Source: Oscillospiraceae bacterium
GTDB taxonomy: Bacteria; Bacillota; Clostridia; Oscillospirales; Oscillospiraceae
DNA: 64,000 nucleotides
Direction of reading: 5' to 3'
Assembly: GCA_017622295.1 (NCBI GenBank)
Contig: JAGARK010000038.1
Coordinates: forward strand, 49,006-113,005
Numbering within the stretch: the first letter of the stretch is position 1; each line of letters opens with the position of its first letter. Positions 33,120 through 63,561 of the stretch are shown piece after piece. The position numbers and the translations under genes are program-made. The notes below the pieces were generated by a model that saw nothing but the letters and a program-made list of their open reading frames with translations, did no database searches and was not told where the DNA came from.

Positions 33120-33123
33120 TGAA

Positions 33124-33158
33124 AAACGGCTGTCGCAGGTTTTCTGCGACAGCCGTTT
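33124..33158. terminator. Bidirectional terminator
   Basis: AAACGGCTGTCGCAG / CTGCGACAGCCGTTT, 15 bp, between the convergent ABC permease and aroQ genes; ends the aro superoperon. Confidence 0.9.
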
Positions 33159-33160
33159 CC

Positions 33161-33592
33161 TTATGCATAATGCTCTTTCAGATACAGAATTGCTTCCCGG
33201 TAGCCTTCGAAGCCGCGGCCCTTAATGGTGTGGACACAGGCCATGCCTGCGTAAGAAATCTGCCGGAAGGGCTCTCTTGCGTCCACATCGGAGATGTGAA
33301 CCTCCACCGCCGGGATGGATACCGCCTTCAGCGCATCCAGGATGGCGACGGATGTGTGGGTGTAGGCGGCGGGGTTGATGACGATGCCGTCAAATTTGCC
33401 ATAAGCCTCCTGAATTTTATCCACAAGACAGCCCTCGTGATTGGACTGATACTGTTCGATTTCCAGATTTTCCTCCCGGGCGGTTTTCTCGATCAGCGCC
33501 AGAAGATCGGCAAAGGTGTTCTTGCCGTAGATTCCCGGCTCCCGGATTCCCAGCATATTCAGATTGGGGCCGTTCAAAACCAGAATTTTCAT
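33161..33592 (-). CDS. aroQ: 3-dehydroquinate dehydratase, type II
   Basis: Third shikimate step: dehydrates 3-dehydroquinate to 3-dehydroshikimate. Type II signatures: LNGPNLNMLGIREPGIYG with catalytic Arg and Tyr in the flexible lid, QSNHEG, NPAAYTHTS, and VEVHISD with catalytic His. 143 aa, typical dodecameric form. The start overlaps the aroE/K stop by 4 bases (ATGA). Last gene of the minus-strand aro operon. Confidence 0.97.
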   Translation of the reverse strand: MKILVLNGPNLNMLGIREPGIYGKNTFADLLALIEKTAREENLEIEQYQSNHEGCLVDKIQEAYGKFDGIVINPAAYTHTSVAILDALKAVSIPAVEVHISDVDAREPFRQISYAGMACVHTIKGRGFEGYREAILYLKEHYA

Positions 33593-34803
33593 GTCAGTAC
33601 CTCCAGAATTTGGGAGATGGTGGAATCCGGATCGCCGTCATTGTCGATTGTCTGATCGGCGAAGGCTTCATACAGGGGTTTTCGGATCCGGTACATGTCG
33701 GTGAGCTTGTTCGTCTGGGACAAGGGGCGGCCGTCAGTGGGCAGTTTATCCAGATCCCGCTTCAGCCAGAAGATGGTACCGTTCTGGTGGAGCAGCGGAT
33801 AGTTCCGCTGCTGGGTGACGCAGCCGCCGCCGGTGGCGATGACGAGCCCGGATTGCTGGCCCAGCTCCTGAAGAGTCTCCGTTTCCAGAGCCCGGAAGCC
33901 CTCCTCGCCGTCGGTGGCGAAGATTTCAGGAATGGAGCGGCCTGCTTTTTCGACAAGATACGCATCGGCGTCCACGAATTTCTTTCCAGTTTTTTCTGCC
34001 AGCAGCTTACCGATGGTGGATTTGCCGCAGCCGGGCATGCCGATGAGGATAATGTTCTCCATCTGATGGCGCAGAAGGCTGTGGATCTTCGTGATTTTTT
34101 CGTCAGCAATGGTGGTGTCTGCGAACCATTCGGCGGATTCCTTGGCCTGAGCCACCAGCATCAGCAGGCCGTTCATGGCCGCGATGCCCCGTCCCTCGGC
34201 GTCCAGCAGGATTTGGGTACGGGCGGGATTGTAGACCACATCCAGCACGCCCTCCAGCTTCGGGAACAGGTCTAGGTCCACAGGGCTGACGCCCACCTTC
34301 GGATACATGCCCACGGGGGTAGTGTTGACGATAAGGGCGGCGTCAGCGTGAAGGTGGAGATTGCCGTAATTGTTGGCTCCGCTGCGGGAGATTACATAGA
34401 CTTCCGCTCCCAGCTCTTCCAGCACGGCCACCGCCGTGTTGGAGGCGCCACCGCTGCCCAGCACCAGGGCTTTCTTTCCTGTGACCTCCAGACCACTGGA
34501 ACACACCATGGTCCGGAAGCCAAAATAGTCCGTATTATGTCCAATAAGCTTACCATCCTGGCGGACGATGGTGTTCACCGCCCCGAGGCGCTTTGCTCTG
34601 GGGGTCAGCTCATCCAGGTAGGGAATGACATCCTTTTTATAGGGGACGGTCACATTCAGGCCCGTAAAATCGCCGTTTCGCAGGAAGTTTTCCAGCTCCT
34701 CCGGCTCTTTCTCGAAGAGAACATAGTCATAATCCGCCAGCTGGGCGTGGATCTGGGGGGAATAGCTGTGGCCCAGCTTCCGCCCAAGAAGTCCGCACTT
34801 CAT
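33589..34803 (-). CDS. aroE-aroK: Bifunctional shikimate dehydrogenase / shikimate kinase fusion
   Basis: Single 404-aa polypeptide with two consecutive pathway enzymes. Residues 1 to about 260 are AroE: KLGHSYSPQIH (shikimate-binding), NVTVPYKK (catalytic Lys), GHNTDYFGF (catalytic Asp), VLGSGGASNTAV (NADP site). Residues about 265-404 are AroK: IILIGMPGCGKSTIGKLLAE (Walker A), VDADAYLV, ATGGGCVT. The linker is short and has no internal ribosome site that I see. The start overlaps the pheA stop by one base. Such fusion makes steps 4 and 5 equimolar. Confidence 0.94.
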   Translation of the reverse strand: MKCGLLGRKLGHSYSPQIHAQLADYDYVLFEKEPEELENFLRNGDFTGLNVTVPYKKDVIPYLDELTPRAKRLGAVNTIVRQDGKLIGHNTDYFGFRTMVCSSGLEVTGKKALVLGSGGASNTAVAVLEELGAEVYVISRSGANNYGNLHLHADAALIVNTTPVGMYPKVGVSPVDLDLFPKLEGVLDVVYNPARTQILLDAEGRGIAAMNGLLMLVAQAKESAEWFADTTIADEKITKIHSLLRHQMENIILIGMPGCGKSTIGKLLAEKTGKKFVDADAYLVEKAGRSIPEIFATDGEEGFRALETETLQELGQQSGLVIATGGGCVTQQRNYPLLHQNGTIFWLKRDLDKLPTDGRPLSQTNKLTDMYRIRKPLYEAFADQTIDNDGDPDSTISQILEVLT

Positions 34804-35945
34804 CACAGCACCTCGCGGTAGCTGCCCAGATACTTGAATTCCTCGCACAGGTCATCCAGCTCGCACATCAGCTGGACGAATTCCTCGGAGTAGATGGAGG
34901 TCTCCAGATCAAAGTAGAACATGAACTCGAAATCCCGGTCGGGGATGGGGCGGGACTCCAGCTTGGTGACGTTGATGCCCAGCACGTAGAGACGGGCCAG
35001 GAATTTGTACAGGGAACCGGGCCGGTGGGGCAGGACCATCATGATGCTGGTCCGGTCGGAGCCGGGGTAGATTTCCAGATTCTTGCTGATGCAGATGAAG
35101 CGGGTGTGGTTGTTGCCTTTGTCCTGAATGGAGGCGGCCAGGCACTCCAGATTGTACAGCTCCATGCAGTTGCGGCTGGACAGGGCGGCAACATCGCTGC
35201 GGTCAGACTTGGAGACCATTTCGGCAGCCACGGCGGTGTTGGCTACGGGGACAATGTTCACGCCGGTGAGCTTCTGCAAAAATTCGCTGCACTGATTGAT
35301 GGCCTGCTCGTGGGAGTAGATCTCCTTGATATCCGAGAGCTTGGTGCCGGGCTTGGCCAGCAGATTGTGGTCCACCTTCAGGCGGAAGGTCCGGACGATG
35401 GAGAAATTGTGCTTGATCATCAGATCATATACCTTCTTGACGGAGCCTGCGGTAGAGTTTTCCAGAGGCAGGATGCCGTACTGGCATAGACCCTTCTCAA
35501 TGGCGCCGAAGACGCCCTCAAAGTTCTTGAAGTACATGATGAAGGGGTTCTTGAAGATCTTCTCACAGGCGATTTGGGAGTAGGCGCCCTCCACGCCCTG
35601 ACAGGCCACCATGGGGGCCTGGGGGAAGAGCTTGGGGGTGTTCTCAATGGCCTCAGTGATCTCAGCGTACAGGGGGCTGATGGTGTCGTTCTTCTTGCTC
35701 TGATAGCTGCGGCTCAGCTCAAAGAGCATGGAGTACAGAACCCGGGTATAATTGGCCATTTCGGGGCCAGCCTTTTCGGCAACGTCCACCAGCTTCTCCC
35801 GCTCCCGGGCGGGGACGAAGATGGGCATACTTTTTTCCTTCTTGTAGTCGGCGATCTGGGCGGCCACTTCCATACGCTGGCCGAAGAGCTTCACCAGCTC
35901 GTCGTCGATTTTGTCGATTTCATTGCGCAGGTTTTTCAGTTCCAT
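34803..35945 (-). CDS. pheA: Bifunctional chorismate mutase / prephenate dehydratase (P-protein)
   Basis: Chorismate to prephenate to phenylpyruvate, the Phe branch. Residues 1 to about 85 are an AroQ-type mutase (LRNEIDKIDDELVKLFGQRMEVA); residues about 108-285 are the dehydratase (CQGVEGAYSQIACEKIF, GILPLENSTAGSV, DVAALSSRNC); the C-terminus is an ACT domain (RTSIMMVLPHRPGSLYKFLA and the LESRPIPDRDFEFMFYFD block) for feedback by phenylalanine. 380 aa. AGGAGG precedes ATG; 3 bases after aroC. Confidence 0.97.
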   Translation of the reverse strand: MELKNLRNEIDKIDDELVKLFGQRMEVAAQIADYKKEKSMPIFVPAREREKLVDVAEKAGPEMANYTRVLYSMLFELSRSYQSKKNDTISPLYAEITEAIENTPKLFPQAPMVACQGVEGAYSQIACEKIFKNPFIMYFKNFEGVFGAIEKGLCQYGILPLENSTAGSVKKVYDLMIKHNFSIVRTFRLKVDHNLLAKPGTKLSDIKEIYSHEQAINQCSEFLQKLTGVNIVPVANTAVAAEMVSKSDRSDVAALSSRNCMELYNLECLAASIQDKGNNHTRFICISKNLEIYPGSDRTSIMMVLPHRPGSLYKFLARLYVLGINVTKLESRPIPDRDFEFMFYFDLETSIYSEEFVQLMCELDDLCEEFKYLGSYREVL

Positions 35946-35948
35946 GGT

Positions 35949-37037
35949 TTACTTCCTCCTGTCGGTTTGGGTATTGCCAAGAATCAAATCATAGATTGCA
36001 ATGGCCGCGGCGGCTTCGATGACCGGGACGGCTCTGGGGACGATACAGGGGTCGTGACGGCCCTTGATTTCCAAGGTGGTGGTTTCCATCTTACTGAGGG
36101 AAACGCTCTGCTGGGGGCGGGAGATGGAGGGGGTGGGCTTGATGGTTACTTCGAAAATAACGGGCATACCGTTGGTGATACCACCGAGGATGCCGCCGCA
36201 GTGGTTGGTCTGAGTACTTATTTTTCCGTTTTCGATAACATAATTATCGTTTACATCGCTACCGCAAACTGCGCCGATTGGTCCGATATCTCCGAATTCA
36301 ATTGCCTTGACAGCAGGAATGCCAAAAACAATCTGAGAAATTCGGTTTTCTACACCGCCGAACATGGGTTCACCCAAACCGGCAGGAAGCCCAGTGACTG
36401 CACATCGAATAATCCCGCCGACACTGTCATGGTTCTCTCTGGCATAAGCAATAACAGATTTCATTTCTTTCGCGCAGTAGTTGTTGAATACAGGAAATTC
36501 AGGATTCAGACGCTCTAATTCAGGATTAACGTAATCCATAAAATCATCATTTACGGATCCAATGCAAGCAATTTGGGCACCGATCCGAATCCCCATCTCC
36601 TCCAGCCACTGCTTGCACAATCCTCCAGCGATGCACAGGGGGGCAGTCAAGCGGCCAGAGAAATGTCCGCCGCCGGCAGCGTCCTGGAAGCCGCCGTATT
36701 TGATCTGGGCGGTGTAGTCCGCGTGGCCGGGCCGGGGACAGTCCTTCAGATTGGCATAGTCCCCGGAGCGGGTGTTCTTGTTGTGGATCACCGCGGCGAT
36801 GGGTGCGCCGCAGGTATAGCCGTCCACCAGACCCGCCAGAAATTCGGGCCGGTCCTCTTCCTTCCGGGGGGTGGACCAGTCGTTCTGGCCAGGAGCCCGG
36901 CGGTTCAGGAATTCCTGAAGCCTGTCGAGATCAACAGGGAGTCCCGCAGGGATGCCGTCCAGGGTCATACCGATGGCGGGGCCGTGGGACTGGCCGAAGA
37001 TGGATAATTTCAAATTTTCACCGTAGGTGCTGCTCAT
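35949..37037 (-). CDS. aroC: Chorismate synthase, mosaic composition
   Basis: FMN-dependent conversion of EPSP to chorismate. FGQSHGPAIGMTLDGIPAGLP, RPGHADYTAQIKYGG and the GGGHFSGRLTA block near the N-terminus, and GRHDPCIVPRAVPVIEAAAAI near the C-terminus are diagnostic; 362 aa is normal and the frame is intact. About 36205-36600 is AT-rich (45% GC by hand count over 36241-36600) with A/T-ending codons, while the flanks are near two thirds GC. Its start lies 20 bases inside aroA. Confidence 0.96.
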   Translation of the reverse strand: MSSTYGENLKLSIFGQSHGPAIGMTLDGIPAGLPVDLDRLQEFLNRRAPGQNDWSTPRKEEDRPEFLAGLVDGYTCGAPIAAVIHNKNTRSGDYANLKDCPRPGHADYTAQIKYGGFQDAAGGGHFSGRLTAPLCIAGGLCKQWLEEMGIRIGAQIACIGSVNDDFMDYVNPELERLNPEFPVFNNYCAKEMKSVIAYARENHDSVGGIIRCAVTGLPAGLGEPMFGGVENRISQIVFGIPAVKAIEFGDIGPIGAVCGSDVNDNYVIENGKISTQTNHCGGILGGITNGMPVIFEVTIKPTPSISRPQQSVSLSKMETTTLEIKGRHDPCIVPRAVPVIEAAAAIAIYDLILGNTQTDRRK

Positions 37038-38184
37038 AATTGCCTCCTAAACGGGTGTATTCTTCCCAGAATTTGGGATAGGATTTGTTGACGGCCTCCG
37101 CGCCCAGGATGGTGACGGGTTCAGAGCAGACCGTGGCGGCGATGGCGGCTGCCATGGCGATGCGGTGGTCGTTTTGTGCATCCACTGTGCCGCCTGTGAA
37201 GCCGGTGCCCCAGACGGTCAGGGTATCCTCGGAGGCTTCGGCATGGCCTCCCAGAGCCTCGATCATGGAGATGGTTGAGGCCACCCGGTCGGATTCCTTG
37301 ATCCGCAGCCGATGGATATTCTGAAAAGCCGCCCCGGATTTGGCTCCGGCAGTGACGGCCAAAATCGGTACCAGGTCAGGAATATCCGCGGCGTCCACAG
37401 TAGCGAACTGCTTGAGAGCTGGCAGGATCTGTGCTGCTGCCCGGTCGCCCTGGGGTGAGGAGGGATTCAGATTGGATACGTCGATTTCATTGCCGAGGGA
37501 TTTTGCCGCCAGGAAGAAGGCGCCGTTGCTCCAGTCACCCTCCACAGTAATGCAGCCGGGGGAGCGGAAGGCGGGGGCATGAAACAGCTCCATGGCCTTT
37601 TTCGTCATGTCAATATAGGGCCGGGATTCGATCTTTCCGGTAACCTCCAGATGACTGTCGCCGGGGATCAGCGCAAGAGCGAAGAGGAGGCCAGTGATGA
37701 ACTGGCTGGAAACGCCGCCGTCGATGGAATATGCGCCTGGTTTCAGCTTACCAGTGCAGCGGATGGTGTCCGCTGTGGGACGGCTCAGGCGGCAGCCCTT
37801 ACGCTCCAGCTCCTCCCAAAGAGGGGATAGGGGACGCTGGGGAAGTCTGCCTGCCATCTGGAATGTGGCGTCCACGCCCAGAGCGCCCACGATGGGGAGC
37901 ATGAAGCGCAGTGTCGAGCCGCTTTCACAGACATTCAGAACGGCGCTTTCGGGAGTCTGCACGATGGGTTCAGTCAGATAGCCTTCAGCGGTTCTGGTGA
38001 TCTTTGCGCCCAGAGCCTTCAGGCAGTCGGCGGTGGCTTCAATGTCCCGGTTGGTATCGGGGCAGATAAGCTCCGTGGGACGGTCCGCAAAGGCGGCGCA
38101 GATCAGCAGCCGGTGGGCCTGGGACTTGGAGGGAATGGCGGTCACATGGCCGCTGAGCTTTCTCGGTTGTATTGTAATGTCCAT
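37018..38184 (-). CDS. aroA: 3-phosphoshikimate 1-carboxyvinyltransferase (EPSP synthase)
   Basis: Transfers enolpyruvate from PEP to shikimate 3-phosphate. KSQAHRLLICAAFA (Lys/Ser PEP site), CESGSTLRFMLPIVGALG, IDGGVSSQFITGLLFAL, IKESDRVASTI and NDHRIAMAAAIA are visible. At 388 aa it is shorter than the 427-aa enterobacterial enzyme but contains all motifs. Its last codons (LGGNY) encode the AGGAGG ribosome site of aroC, which starts 20 bases before the aroA stop. Confidence 0.96.
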   Translation of the reverse strand: MDITIQPRKLSGHVTAIPSKSQAHRLLICAAFADRPTELICPDTNRDIEATADCLKALGAKITRTAEGYLTEPIVQTPESAVLNVCESGSTLRFMLPIVGALGVDATFQMAGRLPQRPLSPLWEELERKGCRLSRPTADTIRCTGKLKPGAYSIDGGVSSQFITGLLFALALIPGDSHLEVTGKIESRPYIDMTKKAMELFHAPAFRSPGCITVEGDWSNGAFFLAAKSLGNEIDVSNLNPSSPQGDRAAAQILPALKQFATVDAADIPDLVPILAVTAGAKSGAAFQNIHRLRIKESDRVASTISMIEALGGHAEASEDTLTVWGTGFTGGTVDAQNDHRIAMAAAIAATVCSEPVTILGAEAVNKSYPKFWEEYTRLGGNYEQHLR

Positions 38185-38185
38185 A

Positions 38186-39238
38186 TCAAAGACCTGCCTT
38201 GATAAAGGATTGAATTTCTTCTACGGGAGTGGGGGCGATGCGGCAGAAGCCGATGCGCTCCGGGATAATGAGGTTTACGGTACCGCCGCTGCGCTTTTTG
38301 TCGGAAAGGGCGGAGGTGTAGAGGCTTTCGGCGGTATAGCCGCAGCGAAGGGGGAGGCCGAATTTATCCAAAACTTCCAGAATGGAGGCTTCGGTTTCCT
38401 CAGAGCAGATGCCCAGAGTGGCAGCGGCTCTTGTGACGATGGCGGTGCCCATGGCAACGGCGCTGCCGTGGGAGATTTCAAAATGGGACTGGGCTTCTAT
38501 GCCGTGGCCCACAGTGTGGCCCAGATTCAGCCGCATTCGCGCACCGGTGTCGAATTCATCCTCTGCCACCACATCCCGCTTCAATTCGACACAGCGGGTG
38601 ATGACAGCCTCCCGGTCAAAATCCAGCCCTTTTTCCGCCAGATGGGCAAAGAGGTCAGGATCATAGAGAATACCGTACTTGATGACCTCGGCGCAGCCGT
38701 CCCGGAAGATGCTGTCCGGGAGGGTATTCAGTGTGTCAATGTCACACAGCACCAGGCTGGGCTGGTAGAAAGCGCCACAGAGGTTCTTGCCTGCGTACAA
38801 GTCGATGGCGGTCTTGCCGCCCACGGAGGAGTCCACTGCTGCCAGAAGGGTCGTGGGCACCTGAATAAAGGGGATGCCCCGCAGATAGGTGGCGGCGGCA
38901 AAGCCCGCAAGATCTCCCACCACACCGCCGCCCAGTGCCACGATCAGATCCGTCCGGGTCAGGCGGTTTTCTGCCAGAAAATTCAGAAGCTTCAGGTAGG
39001 TTTCGCCGGATTTGCTCTCTTCTCCCGCAGGGAAGACAAAGCTGACGACCTCAAAGCCAGCATCTGCCAGACTCTTCGCGGTAGCTCCGCCGTAGAGGGG
39101 GAAGACATTGGTCTCGCTGACGATGGCGGCTTTTTTTGCTTTGGTCAGGCGCCGGGCTTCGGTGCCCAGCCGGGGCAGCAGACCGGCGCCGATGAGCACA
39201 TCATAGCTGCGGGAAGCTGTTACATGGACGGTATTCAT
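38186..39238 (-). CDS. aroB: 3-dehydroquinate synthase
   Basis: NAD- and metal-dependent cyclisation of DAHP to 3-dehydroquinate. FPAGEESKSGETYLKLLNFL, LGGGVVGDLAGFAAATYLRG, VPTTLLAAVDSSVGGKTAID and LNLGHTVGHGIEAQ (metal His) are present. 350 aa from ATG 39238, which overlaps the tyrA stop by four bases; longer upstream frames have no family resemblance. Confidence 0.96.
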   Translation of the reverse strand: MNTVHVTASRSYDVLIGAGLLPRLGTEARRLTKAKKAAIVSETNVFPLYGGATAKSLADAGFEVVSFVFPAGEESKSGETYLKLLNFLAENRLTRTDLIVALGGGVVGDLAGFAAATYLRGIPFIQVPTTLLAAVDSSVGGKTAIDLYAGKNLCGAFYQPSLVLCDIDTLNTLPDSIFRDGCAEVIKYGILYDPDLFAHLAEKGLDFDREAVITRCVELKRDVVAEDEFDTGARMRLNLGHTVGHGIEAQSHFEISHGSAVAMGTAIVTRAAATLGICSEETEASILEVLDKFGLPLRCGYTAESLYTSALSDKKRSGGTVNLIIPERIGFCRIAPTPVEEIQSFIKAGL

Positions 39239-40065
39239 CCGTCTACCTCCTCCTTGCGGCGTTTGCCCTCTTCCAGAAGGGCGGTGAGTGTTTCCATGTC
39301 CTGCCGGGCGATGGCATCCCGGTAGGCGGTGAGGCTGCCTAAATAAAAATCCAGTTCCTCCAGAACGAAGTCCCGGTTCTCCATAAAGAGCTCCGCCCAC
39401 ATGGGTGCGTTCAGCCATGCAACACGGGTCAGATCCTTGTAGCTGCCGGCGGAGAAGCCCTTGTGATTTCCGGCAGTGGGGGACTTGATGAAGGCGTTGC
39501 TGAGGATATGGGGCATCTGGGAGGTGAATGCGATCATTTTGTCGTGGGCCTCCGCCGTGGTGACGGAGAAGCTGCCAAATTCACAGGGGGCCAGGGCATT
39601 CTTACACCGGTCCAGAAGGTCCATATCGTCAAAGCGGGGGGGCACCAGCACCATGGGCTGACCCTGGAAGAGGGTGGCCCGGCTGTACTTGAAGCCGGAG
39701 AACTGGGAGCCTGCCATGGGGTGGCCGCCCACGAAGGTGAAGCCATATTTTTCCGCCAGAGGGAAGCAGCGGCTGCAGATCTCCCGCTTGATGCCGCAGC
39801 AGTCAATAACCAGTGCATCTTTGCAGATCAGGTGGGCATTGCGCTCCATCCAGGCGGCGGAGCCCTCAGGATAGATGGACAGCAGGATCAGATCGCACTG
39901 AGGGATCGTCTCTTCGGTAAGCTTGCCGTGGACGGCGCCTGCCAGCATGGCAAAGGACAGCATGTCCTCATTGCGCTGGATGGCGTAGACTGTGTGTCCG
40001 GCAATGGCGTAGGCCCGGGCCAGGGAGCCGCCGATGAGACCGAGGCCCAGAATACCCACGGTCAT
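39235..40065 (-). CDS. tyrA: Prephenate (or arogenate) dehydrogenase
   Basis: NAD(P)-dependent oxidative decarboxylation of prephenate to 4-hydroxyphenylpyruvate (or of arogenate to tyrosine). N-terminal Rossmann motif GILGLGLIGGSLARAYA (residues 4-20), GGHPMAGSQFSGF with the catalytic His region, and AHDKMIAFTSQMPHILSNAF. 276 aa, without a C-terminal ACT domain, so feedback control may be weak. Cofactor and substrate preference cannot be told. Overlaps aroF and aroB by four bases each. Confidence 0.93.
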   Translation of the reverse strand: MTVGILGLGLIGGSLARAYAIAGHTVYAIQRNEDMLSFAMLAGAVHGKLTEETIPQCDLILLSIYPEGSAAWMERNAHLICKDALVIDCCGIKREICSRCFPLAEKYGFTFVGGHPMAGSQFSGFKYSRATLFQGQPMVLVPPRFDDMDLLDRCKNALAPCEFGSFSVTTAEAHDKMIAFTSQMPHILSNAFIKSPTAGNHKGFSAGSYKDLTRVAWLNAPMWAELFMENRDFVLEELDFYLGSLTAYRDAIARQDMETLTALLEEGKRRKEEVDG

Positions 40066-41063
40066 AAGATGGCCTCCCGGACCCGCATGACTTTGCGGGC
40101 CACCTCGTCAAACTGGGCGGGGGTCAGGGACTGGGCGCCGTCGCACAGGGCGCAGGCGGGATTGTTGTGAACCTCGATCATGATGCCGTCGGCACCGGCG
40201 GCGGTGGCGGCCACGGCCATGGAGGGGATCATCTTGATCTTGCCGGTGGCGTGGCTGGGGTCGATGACCACGGGCAGATGGCTCAGCTCATGCAGCGCCG
40301 GAACGGCGGACAGGTCCAGGGTATTGCGGGTGTAGGTTTCGAAGGTGCGGATACCCCGCTCGCAGAGGATGACATTCTCGTTGCCCTCGCTCATGATATA
40401 TTCGGCGCTCATCAGCAGCTCCTGGAAGGTGTTTGCCAGTCCCCGCTTCAGGAGGATGGGGGTCTTGCACTTGCCGGTCTCCTTCAGCAGGTCGAAATTC
40501 TGCATGTTTCTGGCGCCAATCTGGATGATGTCCACATCGGTGAAGAGATCCAGGTCGTTGATGTTCATCAGTTCAGTGCAGATGGGAAGGCCGGTGGCCT
40601 CCTTGGCCTTCAGCAGCAGCTTCAGGCCCTCGCCCTTCAGACCCTGGAAGGCGTAGGGGGAAGTGCGGGGCTTGAAGGCACCTCCCCGGAGGATGGTGGC
40701 GCCGGAGGCCTTGACGGCCTGAGCAACGCCCACGATCTGCTCTTCGGACTCAACGGAGCAGGGGCCGGCGATCATGGCAAAATAGCCGCCGCCGATGCGG
40801 ACATCACCCACCTCCACGATGGTGTCCTTGGGGTGGAATTTACGGTTTGCCTGCTTGAAGGGTTCGGAAACACGCTTGACGGTTTCGACGATCTCCAGAC
40901 TCTTCAGCAGCTCCATGTCCACCCGGCTGGTGTCTCCGATGAGGCCGAGAATGGTGATCTCGGAGCCCTCGGACACATGGACGTCCAGATTCATTCGCTT
41001 CAGCCAGTCAATCAGATGCTGGGTCTGGTCGGGGGTTGTACCATGCTTCAATACTGCGATCAT
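40062..41063 (-). CDS. aroF: 3-deoxy-7-phosphoheptulonate (DAHP) synthase, type I-beta
   Basis: Entry enzyme of the shikimate pathway: PEP plus erythrose 4-phosphate. The catalytic barrel starts at about residue 85 (IAGPCSVESEEQIV, RGGAFKPRTSPYAFQG, QIGARNMQNFDLL, DPSHATGK). Residues 1 to about 70 form a ferredoxin-like regulatory domain of the Thermotoga type, which in known enzymes is the site of tyrosine inhibition. 333 aa. AAAGGAGAG precedes ATG. First structural gene after the leader peptide and attenuator. Confidence 0.97.
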   Translation of the reverse strand: MIAVLKHGTTPDQTQHLIDWLKRMNLDVHVSEGSEITILGLIGDTSRVDMELLKSLEIVETVKRVSEPFKQANRKFHPKDTIVEVGDVRIGGGYFAMIAGPCSVESEEQIVGVAQAVKASGATILRGGAFKPRTSPYAFQGLKGEGLKLLLKAKEATGLPICTELMNINDLDLFTDVDIIQIGARNMQNFDLLKETGKCKTPILLKRGLANTFQELLMSAEYIMSEGNENVILCERGIRTFETYTRNTLDLSAVPALHELSHLPVVIDPSHATGKIKMIPSMAVAATAAGADGIMIEVHNNPACALCDGAQSLTPAQFDEVARKVMRVREAIL

Positions 41064-41081: not shown

Positions 41082-41122
41082 AAAAAAAGGGGCGCTGCAC
41101 CGAGGCGATCTCGTTGCAGCGC
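41082..41122 (-). terminator. Attenuator terminator of the aro operon
   Basis: Minus strand GCGCTGCA / TGCAGCGC with an inner CGAG / CTCG, followed by CCCC and seven Ts, 19 bases before the aroF start codon. A GCTGCAGT stretch just upstream (about 41150-41157) could pair with the terminator's 5' arm (GCTGCAAC) as antiterminator. Confidence 0.85.
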
Positions 41123-41172
41123 TTGAAAAATCATCTTAAGCTCCTGTCATTTTACTGCAGCACAAATCGCTA

Positions 41173-41235
41173 TTACTTTTTACCGGTAAAAAAGTAATAG
41201 TAGCCAAAGTAAAACTTAACGGAAGAATTGACCAT
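41173..41235 (-). CDS. Phe/Tyr-rich leader peptide of the aro operon
   Basis: Twenty codons starting at ATG 41235, behind GAGGAGG with an 8-nt gap. The peptide is MVNSSVK followed by FYFGYYYFF and TGKK: eight Phe/Tyr codons in nine positions and no Trp. The Tyr/Phe codons lie in the 5' arm of a strong hairpin, CTATTACTTTTT / AAAAAGTAATAG. Starvation for charged Phe or Tyr tRNA would stall the ribosome there and favour an antiterminator over the terminator at 41082-41122. Position and content match textbook attenuation; direct proof is lacking. Confidence 0.85.
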   Translation of the reverse strand: MVNSSVKFYFGYYYFFTGKK

Positions 41236-41266
41236 GATGGTGCCTCCTCGTACAGTAGCTGTGGAC

Positions 41267-41295
41267 ATTGTACCACGATGTGTGGAAAAATGCAA
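41267..41295 (-). promoter_or_regulatory. Promoter of the aro superoperon
   Basis: Minus strand TTGCAT (41290-41295), 17-bp spacer, TACAAT (41267-41272), 32 bases before the leader peptide. Confidence 0.8.
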
Positions 41296-63399: not shown

Positions 63400-63414
63400 A
63401 ATTTTCACCTCCGA

Positions 63415-63527
63415 AAAATAAAAAAGTGTCTTCCTGCCAGAAGACAGAAAGACACGCAAACAATCAAAAACAATTGGCGCACCTCGGCAGGACTTACTCC
63501 TTGCGGAACCTGCTGTCTTTGGCAACT
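63415..63527 (-). ncRNA. Ribosomal protein L10 leader RNA
   Basis: Between the promoter and rplJ. Minus-strand GTTGCCAAAGACAGCAGGTT ... CCTGCCGAGGTGCGCCAA matches the Firmicutes L10-leader pattern (L10/L12-binding kink-turn region), followed by GTGTCTT / AAGACAC and TTTTTTATTTTT, an attenuator terminator (63420-63455). Free L10-L12 would bind and stop transcription. Confidence 0.85.
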
Positions 63528-63532
63528 TTGAT

Positions 63533-63561
63533 ATCATATCATAAAGATATTCATTTGTCAA
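63533..63561 (-). promoter_or_regulatory. Promoter of rplJ-rplL
   Basis: Minus strand TTGACA (63556-63561), 17-bp spacer, TATGAT (63533-63538). Confidence 0.88.

Follow-up and report, generated by a model that had tools for sequence, protein, structure and literature searches.

On the minus strand of the window (the whole 64,000-nucleotide stretch of Oscillospiraceae DNA that was analysed) lie eight contiguous genes of the shikimate and Phe/Tyr pathway, preceded by a putative regulatory leader (Table 1). All junctions in the operon overlap or leave a gap of at most 3 nt, with starts placed at 39238 for aroB and 34803 for aroE, and downstream of aroQ the operon closes with a strong terminator. 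Because the eight genes are contiguous, one leader precedes the entire route from DAHP to prephenate, phenylpyruvate and hydroxyphenylpyruvate. That one leader stands before eight genes had been proposed from the sequence alone, and the arrangement recurs behind the leader in other families. The tyrA start lies less than 2.4 kb from aroF on the same strand at 83 of the 89 leader-bearing loci of sufficient length. Seven leader loci, all from outside the genus, extend 8.5 kb or more downstream: four of them show the complete eight-gene order, and the remaining three have seven (L120), six (L122) and two (L118) of the genes.

All the leader features named in the sequence-only reading were located on the minus strand by reading the sequence: a promoter, a 20-codon peptide with a strong ribosome site and the run FYFGYYYFF, a hairpin whose 5' arm is built from the Tyr/Phe codons, and, upstream of aroF, a terminator with seven T. 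A consensus scan does not list the promoter, whose -35 element matches at 3/6 positions and so falls under the scan threshold; TTGCA...TATAAT-like sites recur, by eye, in the leaders of relatives. The hairpin, in full CTATTACTTTTTTACCGGTAAAAAGTAATAG, precedes region 2. It had been proposed that GCTGCAGT (41161-41154, inside region 2) pairs with the 5' arm of the terminator; it can, but the helix is longer, joining GCGATTTGTGCTGCAGT to GCTGCAACGAGATCGC and including the terminator loop, which together with region 3 doubles as the 3' strand of the antiterminator. The leader fold has a z score of -3.18, and equal stability was reached in 1/200 shuffles.

Table 1. Positions of the leader features and operon genes in the window, with the T-boxes found before aroF at other loci
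Feature	Position	Strand	Details
Whole leader	41295-41082	-	upstream of aroF
Promoter	41267..41295	-	TTGCAT (41295-41290), 17-nt spacer, TG-N-TACAAT (41272-41267)
Shine-Dalgarno sequence of leader ORF	41243..41249	-	GAGGAGG; sequence reading
Leader ORF	41173..41235	-	MVNSSVKFYFGYYYFFTGKK; ATG start, 20 codons + TAA
Phe/Tyr run (control codons)	41188..41214	-	FYFGYYYFF, codons 8-16
Leader hairpin	41170..41200	-	5' arm CTATTACTTTTTT (Phe/Tyr codons), 3' arm AAAAAGTAATAG (contains stop codon); fold
Region 2, antiterminator 5' strand	41154..41170	-	GCGATTTGTGCTGCAGT; 5' part would lie under a ribosome at the stop codon
Terminator	41092..41122	-	region 3 GCGCTGCAACGAG (41122-41110), loop ATCGC, region 4 CTCGGTGCAGCGC (41104-41092)
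U-tract, predicted end of short transcript	41082..41088	-	TTTTTTT, after CCC
aroF, DAHP synthase type I + ferredoxin-like regulatory domain	40062..41063	-	Pfam PF00793, PF18152
tyrA, prephenate dehydrogenase	39235..40065	-	Pfam; ATGA overlap with aroF
aroB, dehydroquinate synthase	38186..39238	-	Pfam
aroA, EPSP synthase	37018..38184	-	Pfam
aroC, chorismate synthase	35949..37037	-	Pfam
pheA, chorismate mutase-prephenate dehydratase	34803..35945	-	Pfam CM_2 + PDT
aroE-aroK fusion, shikimate dehydrogenase + shikimate kinase	33589..34803	-	Pfam
aroQ, type II dehydroquinase	33161..33592	-	Pfam
Operon-end terminator	33122..33156	-	ACGGCTGTCGCAG-AAAAC-CTGCGACAGCCGT + T-run; coordinates hand-counted
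T-box replacing the peptide, L128	380-644		specifier UUC (Phe)
T-box replacing the peptide, L130	9270-9520		specifier UUC (Phe)
T-box replacing the peptide, L100	442-699

Conservation and coding signal of the leader ORF

An aroF gene was found in 49 of 60 relatives (34 of the 37 within the genus). With a further 80 aroF loci from the genome collection, the best 80 of at least 592, and 20 more stretches, the relatives gave a set of 130 loci, 123 of them distinct. A short ORF with at least six Phe/Tyr in ten residues lies at 96 of these 123 loci (the best 80 of at least 592 included), and 27 lack such a run. Downstream of the leader ORF a terminator-like hairpin was called in all 96 leaders by a custom finder used without shuffle control. 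A Shine-Dalgarno sequence was dropped as a requirement for this count; when it was required, 86 of the 121 aroF loci with 300 nt upstream scored (again including the best 80 of at least 592), as against 10/6050 dinucleotide shuffles, 0/121 reverse strands and 2/619 regions upstream of other ORFs, the two positives scoring 7 and 9.

Do relatives keep the aromatic-rich peptide, as the sequence-only reading demanded? Within the genus they do: the leader is present in 31 of the 34 aroF genomes and absent from G010 and G034, G035 (a partial aroF match) being left out. Of the 15 aroF genomes from other families of the order, nine have the leader when any aroF copy is read; the others have a weaker aromatic ORF (G037, G045, G058), a T-box (G038, G048) or neither (G041).

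Some individual loci deserve mention. In G034 (L113, 560-700) a promoter-like site and the aroF terminator are kept and the Phe/Tyr run is gone, so that the locus looks like an attenuator without its sensor. Contigs labelled Treponema, Lentisphaerae, Thermoguttaceae and Kiritimatiellae also bear leaders. Six loci labelled Spirochaetota, Lentisphaerota, Planctomycetota and Kiritimatiellota (L042, L043, L053, L054, L069, L106) have a Clostridia-like aroF, with a Phe/Tyr run of at least six in five of them and a weaker one in L053; mis-binning or transfer may account for these.

The ORF bears the marks of a translated sequence. When the 37 genus leaders are aligned, gap runs are multiples of three in 24/25 cases in the ORF columns vs 12/69 after the ORF, and within the genus a Shine-Dalgarno sequence recurs upstream of it. 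Over the 96 leaders, Phe and Tyr make up 35.4% of residues in the ORF frame vs 10.9% and 13.2% in the other frames, a bias that supports but does not prove translation because the frames were chosen for Phe/Tyr. Both amino acids occur in 96/96 runs; codon counts are 426 for TTT/TTC and 386 for TAT/TAC, vs 27 for TTA/TTG. These observations bear on an alternative in which the RNA acts by itself: aroF expression would be lowered in part by a constitutive terminator together with a U-rich 5' arm, and the ORF would stay untranslated. The U-rich arm does pair with an A-rich arm, a constraint that would in itself favour codons of the TTT/TAT type, and at equilibrium the terminator always forms (see below); but the triplet gaps, the frame-specific aromatic content and the recurrent Shine-Dalgarno sequence make this alternative very improbable.

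The peptide might also arrest the ribosome through its own sequence, in the manner of TnaC or the Erm leaders, and so sense a free ligand instead of tRNA charging. Its C-terminal half is strongly conserved in the genus (YYYFFxxKK), as such a peptide would require; that conservation is, however, explained by the arms of the leader hairpin, in which 98.2% of cells are paired in the 37 genus leaders, while Phe and Tyr exchange for one another between relatives and the length and ends of the peptide vary. We consider arrest by the peptide itself very unlikely.

Alternative pairings and the position of the ribosome

Region 2 reads GTGCTGC, with slight variation, in 37/37 genus leaders, and the 5' arm of the terminator is mostly GCYGCAC. 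In many relatives the Ala-Ala codons just upstream of the Phe/Tyr run also read GCYGCAC, so that region 2 has two possible partners, region 1 within the ORF and region 3 of the terminator, with one mismatch in each pairing. The window leader is without the Ala-Ala codons, and its early Phe/Tyr codons pair in the fold with GCTGCAGTAAAA instead; in the 37 genus leaders only 70.8% of cells in the Ala-Ala region 1 helix are paired.

Compensatory changes had been suggested as a test of the hairpins, and both the antiterminator and the terminator show them. In the 37 genus leaders the antiterminator has 88.7% of cells paired and 6/13 pairs changed on both sides (13 cells), and the terminator 89.0% and 9/12 pairs (49 cells); the leader hairpin with its base helix has 88.3% and 4/19 pairs (4 cells). 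For each of the three structures a covariation score as high was seen in 0/500 shuffles and slid versions score lower, kinship being ignored. One of five measures, further pair types, is no better than in shuffles (antiterminator 94/500, terminator 115/500). For the hairpin with base helix the evidence is weak, because a version slid by +3 has more double changes (12 cells vs 4) and the margin is small.

Regions 2 and 3 were also swapped among the 59 loci outside the genus. Own pairs average -14.8 kcal/mol vs -11.2 kcal/mol for permuted ones, and 0/5000 permutations were as low, in a test that ignores relatedness and base composition. This supports predicted region 2/3 pairs that match within species and not between distant species. 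The leader is a real and conserved feature and, judged by covariation, a functional one. The comparisons show that its ORF, the Phe/Tyr run, the predicted antiterminator (2:3) and the predicted terminator (3:4) are conserved and co-vary in front of one contiguous operon.

The effect of a ribosome was modelled by folding nascent chains before the synthesis of region 4. Across the 96 leaders, ribosome-free chains form a median of 3.9 antiterminator pairs; the median is 11.5 when a ribosome occupies the first control codon, 11.7 when it occupies the middle one and 2.1 when it has reached the stop codon. At least four pairs form in 47/96 leaders with no ribosome, in 87/96 at the first stall and in 30/96 at the stop. 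The difference between stall and stop is stable across three footprint sizes. Stalled leaders exceed stopped ones by more than 2 bp in 80 of the 96 real cases vs 45.8% of 480 spacer shuffles, and spacer shuffling brings the stalled value down to 6.0.

In the window leader, folded at the same stage, the antiterminator has 13-14 bp when the A site is at codons 8-19 and about none once it reaches codon 20 or the stop. Because a halt anywhere at codons 8-19 gives the same structure, folding as such does not distinguish the Phe/Tyr codons. Without a ribosome the 2:3 pairing amounts to 13.8 bp; that it forms in this state, here and in 47/96 leaders, suggests a protective 1:2 pairing weaker than in classical leaders. 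Once the transcript is complete, the terminator (3:4) wins at equilibrium in every ribosome state, and the switch must therefore be kinetic. Folding with and without a ribosome on codons 8-16, a check proposed with the sequence-only reading, thus bears out a switch before region 4 but not one at equilibrium. The folds suggest that a transcript becomes committed to termination when a ribosome is near the stop codon, and that the choice is made while region 4 is being transcribed. A point against such a switch comes from extracts of PMC7858274, which indicate that RNA polymerases of Bacillota may outrun ribosomes.

We are highly confident that the leader is a ribosome-mediated transcription attenuator of the Phe/Tyr operon, and its codon run very probably serves as a switch for Phe/Tyr starvation; both statements derive from sequence comparison and folding, and the interpretation offered in the sequence-only reading is largely right. 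With Phe-tRNA and Tyr-tRNA both charged, the ribosome would reach UAA and its footprint would cover the 5' part of region 2. After its release 1:2 could pair, region 3 would be free for region 4, and polymerase would stop at 41082-41088. Were either tRNA uncharged, the ribosome would halt in the nine-codon run (codons 8-16) and leave region 2 free to capture region 3 ahead of region 4 synthesis, so that all eight genes would be transcribed. The choice would be kinetic, not one of equilibrium. Trp would not be sensed, consistent with the missing anthranilate branch of the lineage.

T-boxes, distribution and the tryptophan branch

Control of aroF by a T-box riboswitch or a TRAP-type protein, with the aromatic ORF incidental, is the least credible explanation: T-boxes are common in the group (matches at E <= 0.001 in 30/30 relatives, and eight in the window's own genome) and one lies directly upstream of aroF in two relatives (G038, G048) and at locus L100, but the T-box model (RF00230) has no match on the window leader, TRAP (PF02081) occurs in 0/60 genomes with the B. 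subtilis control positive, and of the 18 leaderless loci searched (out of 27) three have a T-box before aroF, none of them with the peptide. Of T-box and TRAP control, named in the sequence-only reading as more usual for aromatic genes in Firmicutes, T-boxes are indeed in use in the own genome. The searches for T-box, TRAP and Rfam leader families at the window leader thus gave no support to any of these. No Rfam family reaches gathering level there, a threshold of E <= 5 yields two unrelated sub-threshold matches only, and the amino acid leader families of Rfam 15 have no covariance model match. Elsewhere in the window, at 63412-63540 on the minus strand, lies a ribosomal protein L10 leader (RF00557, 59.6 bits).

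The aroF T-boxes of G038 and G048 have UUC (Phe) at the specifier position; the same way of reading agrees with AUG for metG and AUC for ileS. In the own genome, the five of eight T-boxes that were examined precede metG, ileS, ilvA and genes for a MetN-like ATPase and a TrpX-like ABC transporter; the MetN-like and TrpX-like genes are under the NCBIfam cut-off and the ilvA T-box is slightly under Rfam's. The T-box before the TrpX-like gene (L216 2301-2536, G000:C44) has UUC, and may be a second sensor of Phe.

A covariance model of the 37 leaders, 31 of which come from genomes within the search set, gave one strong match each in 81/101 genus genomes (E <= 5.1e-17, the next being 7.5e-5) and no strong match in 20/101. 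With one strong match per genome in those 81, there is no support for control of additional genus genes by this element. In 394 genomes of the order, searched with strict filters whether aroF-bearing or not, 69 have a match at E <= 1e-3. The best 30 loci, at least seven of which are leaders already in the locus set, include 29 that lie before aroF with an aromatic leader. The exception (L204, G181:C97, about 1500-1700) has a leader, MKNANCIAKYWYFYFTQVAR, with a YWYFYF run and a terminator before a TrpB-like enzyme. One weak match, L221, proved to be an AT-rich hairpin with no leader.

In a quick tree built from 123 AroF proteins, most branches include leader-bearing loci, and a single small cluster of four contains the three T-box loci (T-boxes having been searched for at 18 of the 27 leaderless loci). 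The label 'leader' must change 17 times or more along this tree, so no single origin is claimed. It is a tentative suggestion, possible more than probable, that translation-coupled attenuation by a Phe/Tyr peptide is the old default control of the whole aromatic pathway across Oscillospirales, and that certain lineages have replaced it with a Phe T-box.

As claimed, the leader has no Trp codon. A trpE gene is absent from 37/37 genus genomes, many of them partial (the own genome is 75.6% complete); it is present in 4/23 others and was detected in all 14 control genomes. Similarly, trpA is above cut-off in 2/25 genus genomes, with weaker matches in two more. The scarcity of trpE and trpA suggests that the lineage probably cannot make Trp from chorismate, and the absence of trpE fits the absence of Trp codons from the predicted leader peptide. 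The leader's amino acids correspond to the chorismate products that remain to the lineage.

That said, the comparison of trpE with codon content does not support a rule that Trp codons appear wherever trpE is present. Trp occurs in or near the run in 4/96 leaders (L033, L051, L104, L106); trpE is present in the L104 genome and absent from those of L033, L051 and a weaker Trp-bearing leader, L044. Three genomes with trpE differ in this respect: the weak leader of G058 contains two Trp codons, the leaders of G042 and G044 none.

Relation to known attenuators

Textbook accounts of leader-peptide attenuation draw on enterobacteria, and the sensors mainly ascribed to Firmicutes are T-boxes and TRAP. 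Here a putative leader-peptide element stands before an eight-gene Phe/Tyr operon, alongside T-boxes in one genome. If peptide attenuation is indeed the old default control suggested above, transcription and translation would be coupled at the leader in these Clostridia, unlike the uncoupled state described for Bacillus subtilis, and one genome would sense Phe-tRNA twice, through a UUC T-box for uptake (the TrpX-like gene) and through the peptide for synthesis. The leader offers a test of whether ribosomes pace RNA polymerase in little-studied Clostridia, and supplies a candidate RNA family and a rule for spotting a 20-codon gene.

The element resembles the enterobacterial attenuators of the pheL/trpL/hisL type, which combine a leader ORF containing control codons, alternative pairings and an intrinsic terminator before a biosynthetic operon. 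No sequence relation to them was found (no Rfam match), and unlike them it has Phe and Tyr codons in one leader and precedes the whole shikimate and Phe/Tyr pathway, not one branch. It shares with T-boxes (RF00230) the presumed sensing of tRNA charging before a terminator; a T-box needs no leader ORF or translation.

The mechanism class is already known, and leader peptides in Firmicutes are not unprecedented. The enterobacterial type of mechanism is described in extracts of PMC9413887 and PMC5864092. According to the same extracts, His leaders precede his operons in Eubacteriales, Erysipelotrichales and the B. cereus group (PMC9413887), and an ilv-leu leader, Rli60, occurs in Listeria (PMC5864092); an extract of PMC2965389 adds His leader peptides before hisZ/hisS in bacilli. 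These Firmicutes leaders belong to the same mechanism class and the same phylum as the one described here; the amino acids, operons and sequences are other ones. No element of this kind is reported for Phe or Tyr in Actinobacteria in the extract of PMC1262725. A 2010 survey by Lopatovskaya and colleagues, cited in an extract of PMC4833913, may contain related predictions.

In the open-access PMC literature we found no report of a Phe/Tyr leader before aroF in Clostridia. Within the literature searched, the putative family appears to be new, as do its dual Phe/Tyr run, its position ahead of the complete pathway and its distribution in Oscillospirales. The closest description is that of the uORFC-13-1 motif (extract of PMC8632094), 24 sequences upstream of aroF in Acholeplasma and unassigned environmental DNA with at least one Phe codon, for which attenuation was proposed. 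Both have a uORF with one or more Phe codons, a Shine-Dalgarno sequence and a terminator before aroF; unlike that motif, as far as its description goes, the leader reported here belongs to Oscillospirales, has six to nine Phe/Tyr in ten residues and has a covarying antiterminator.
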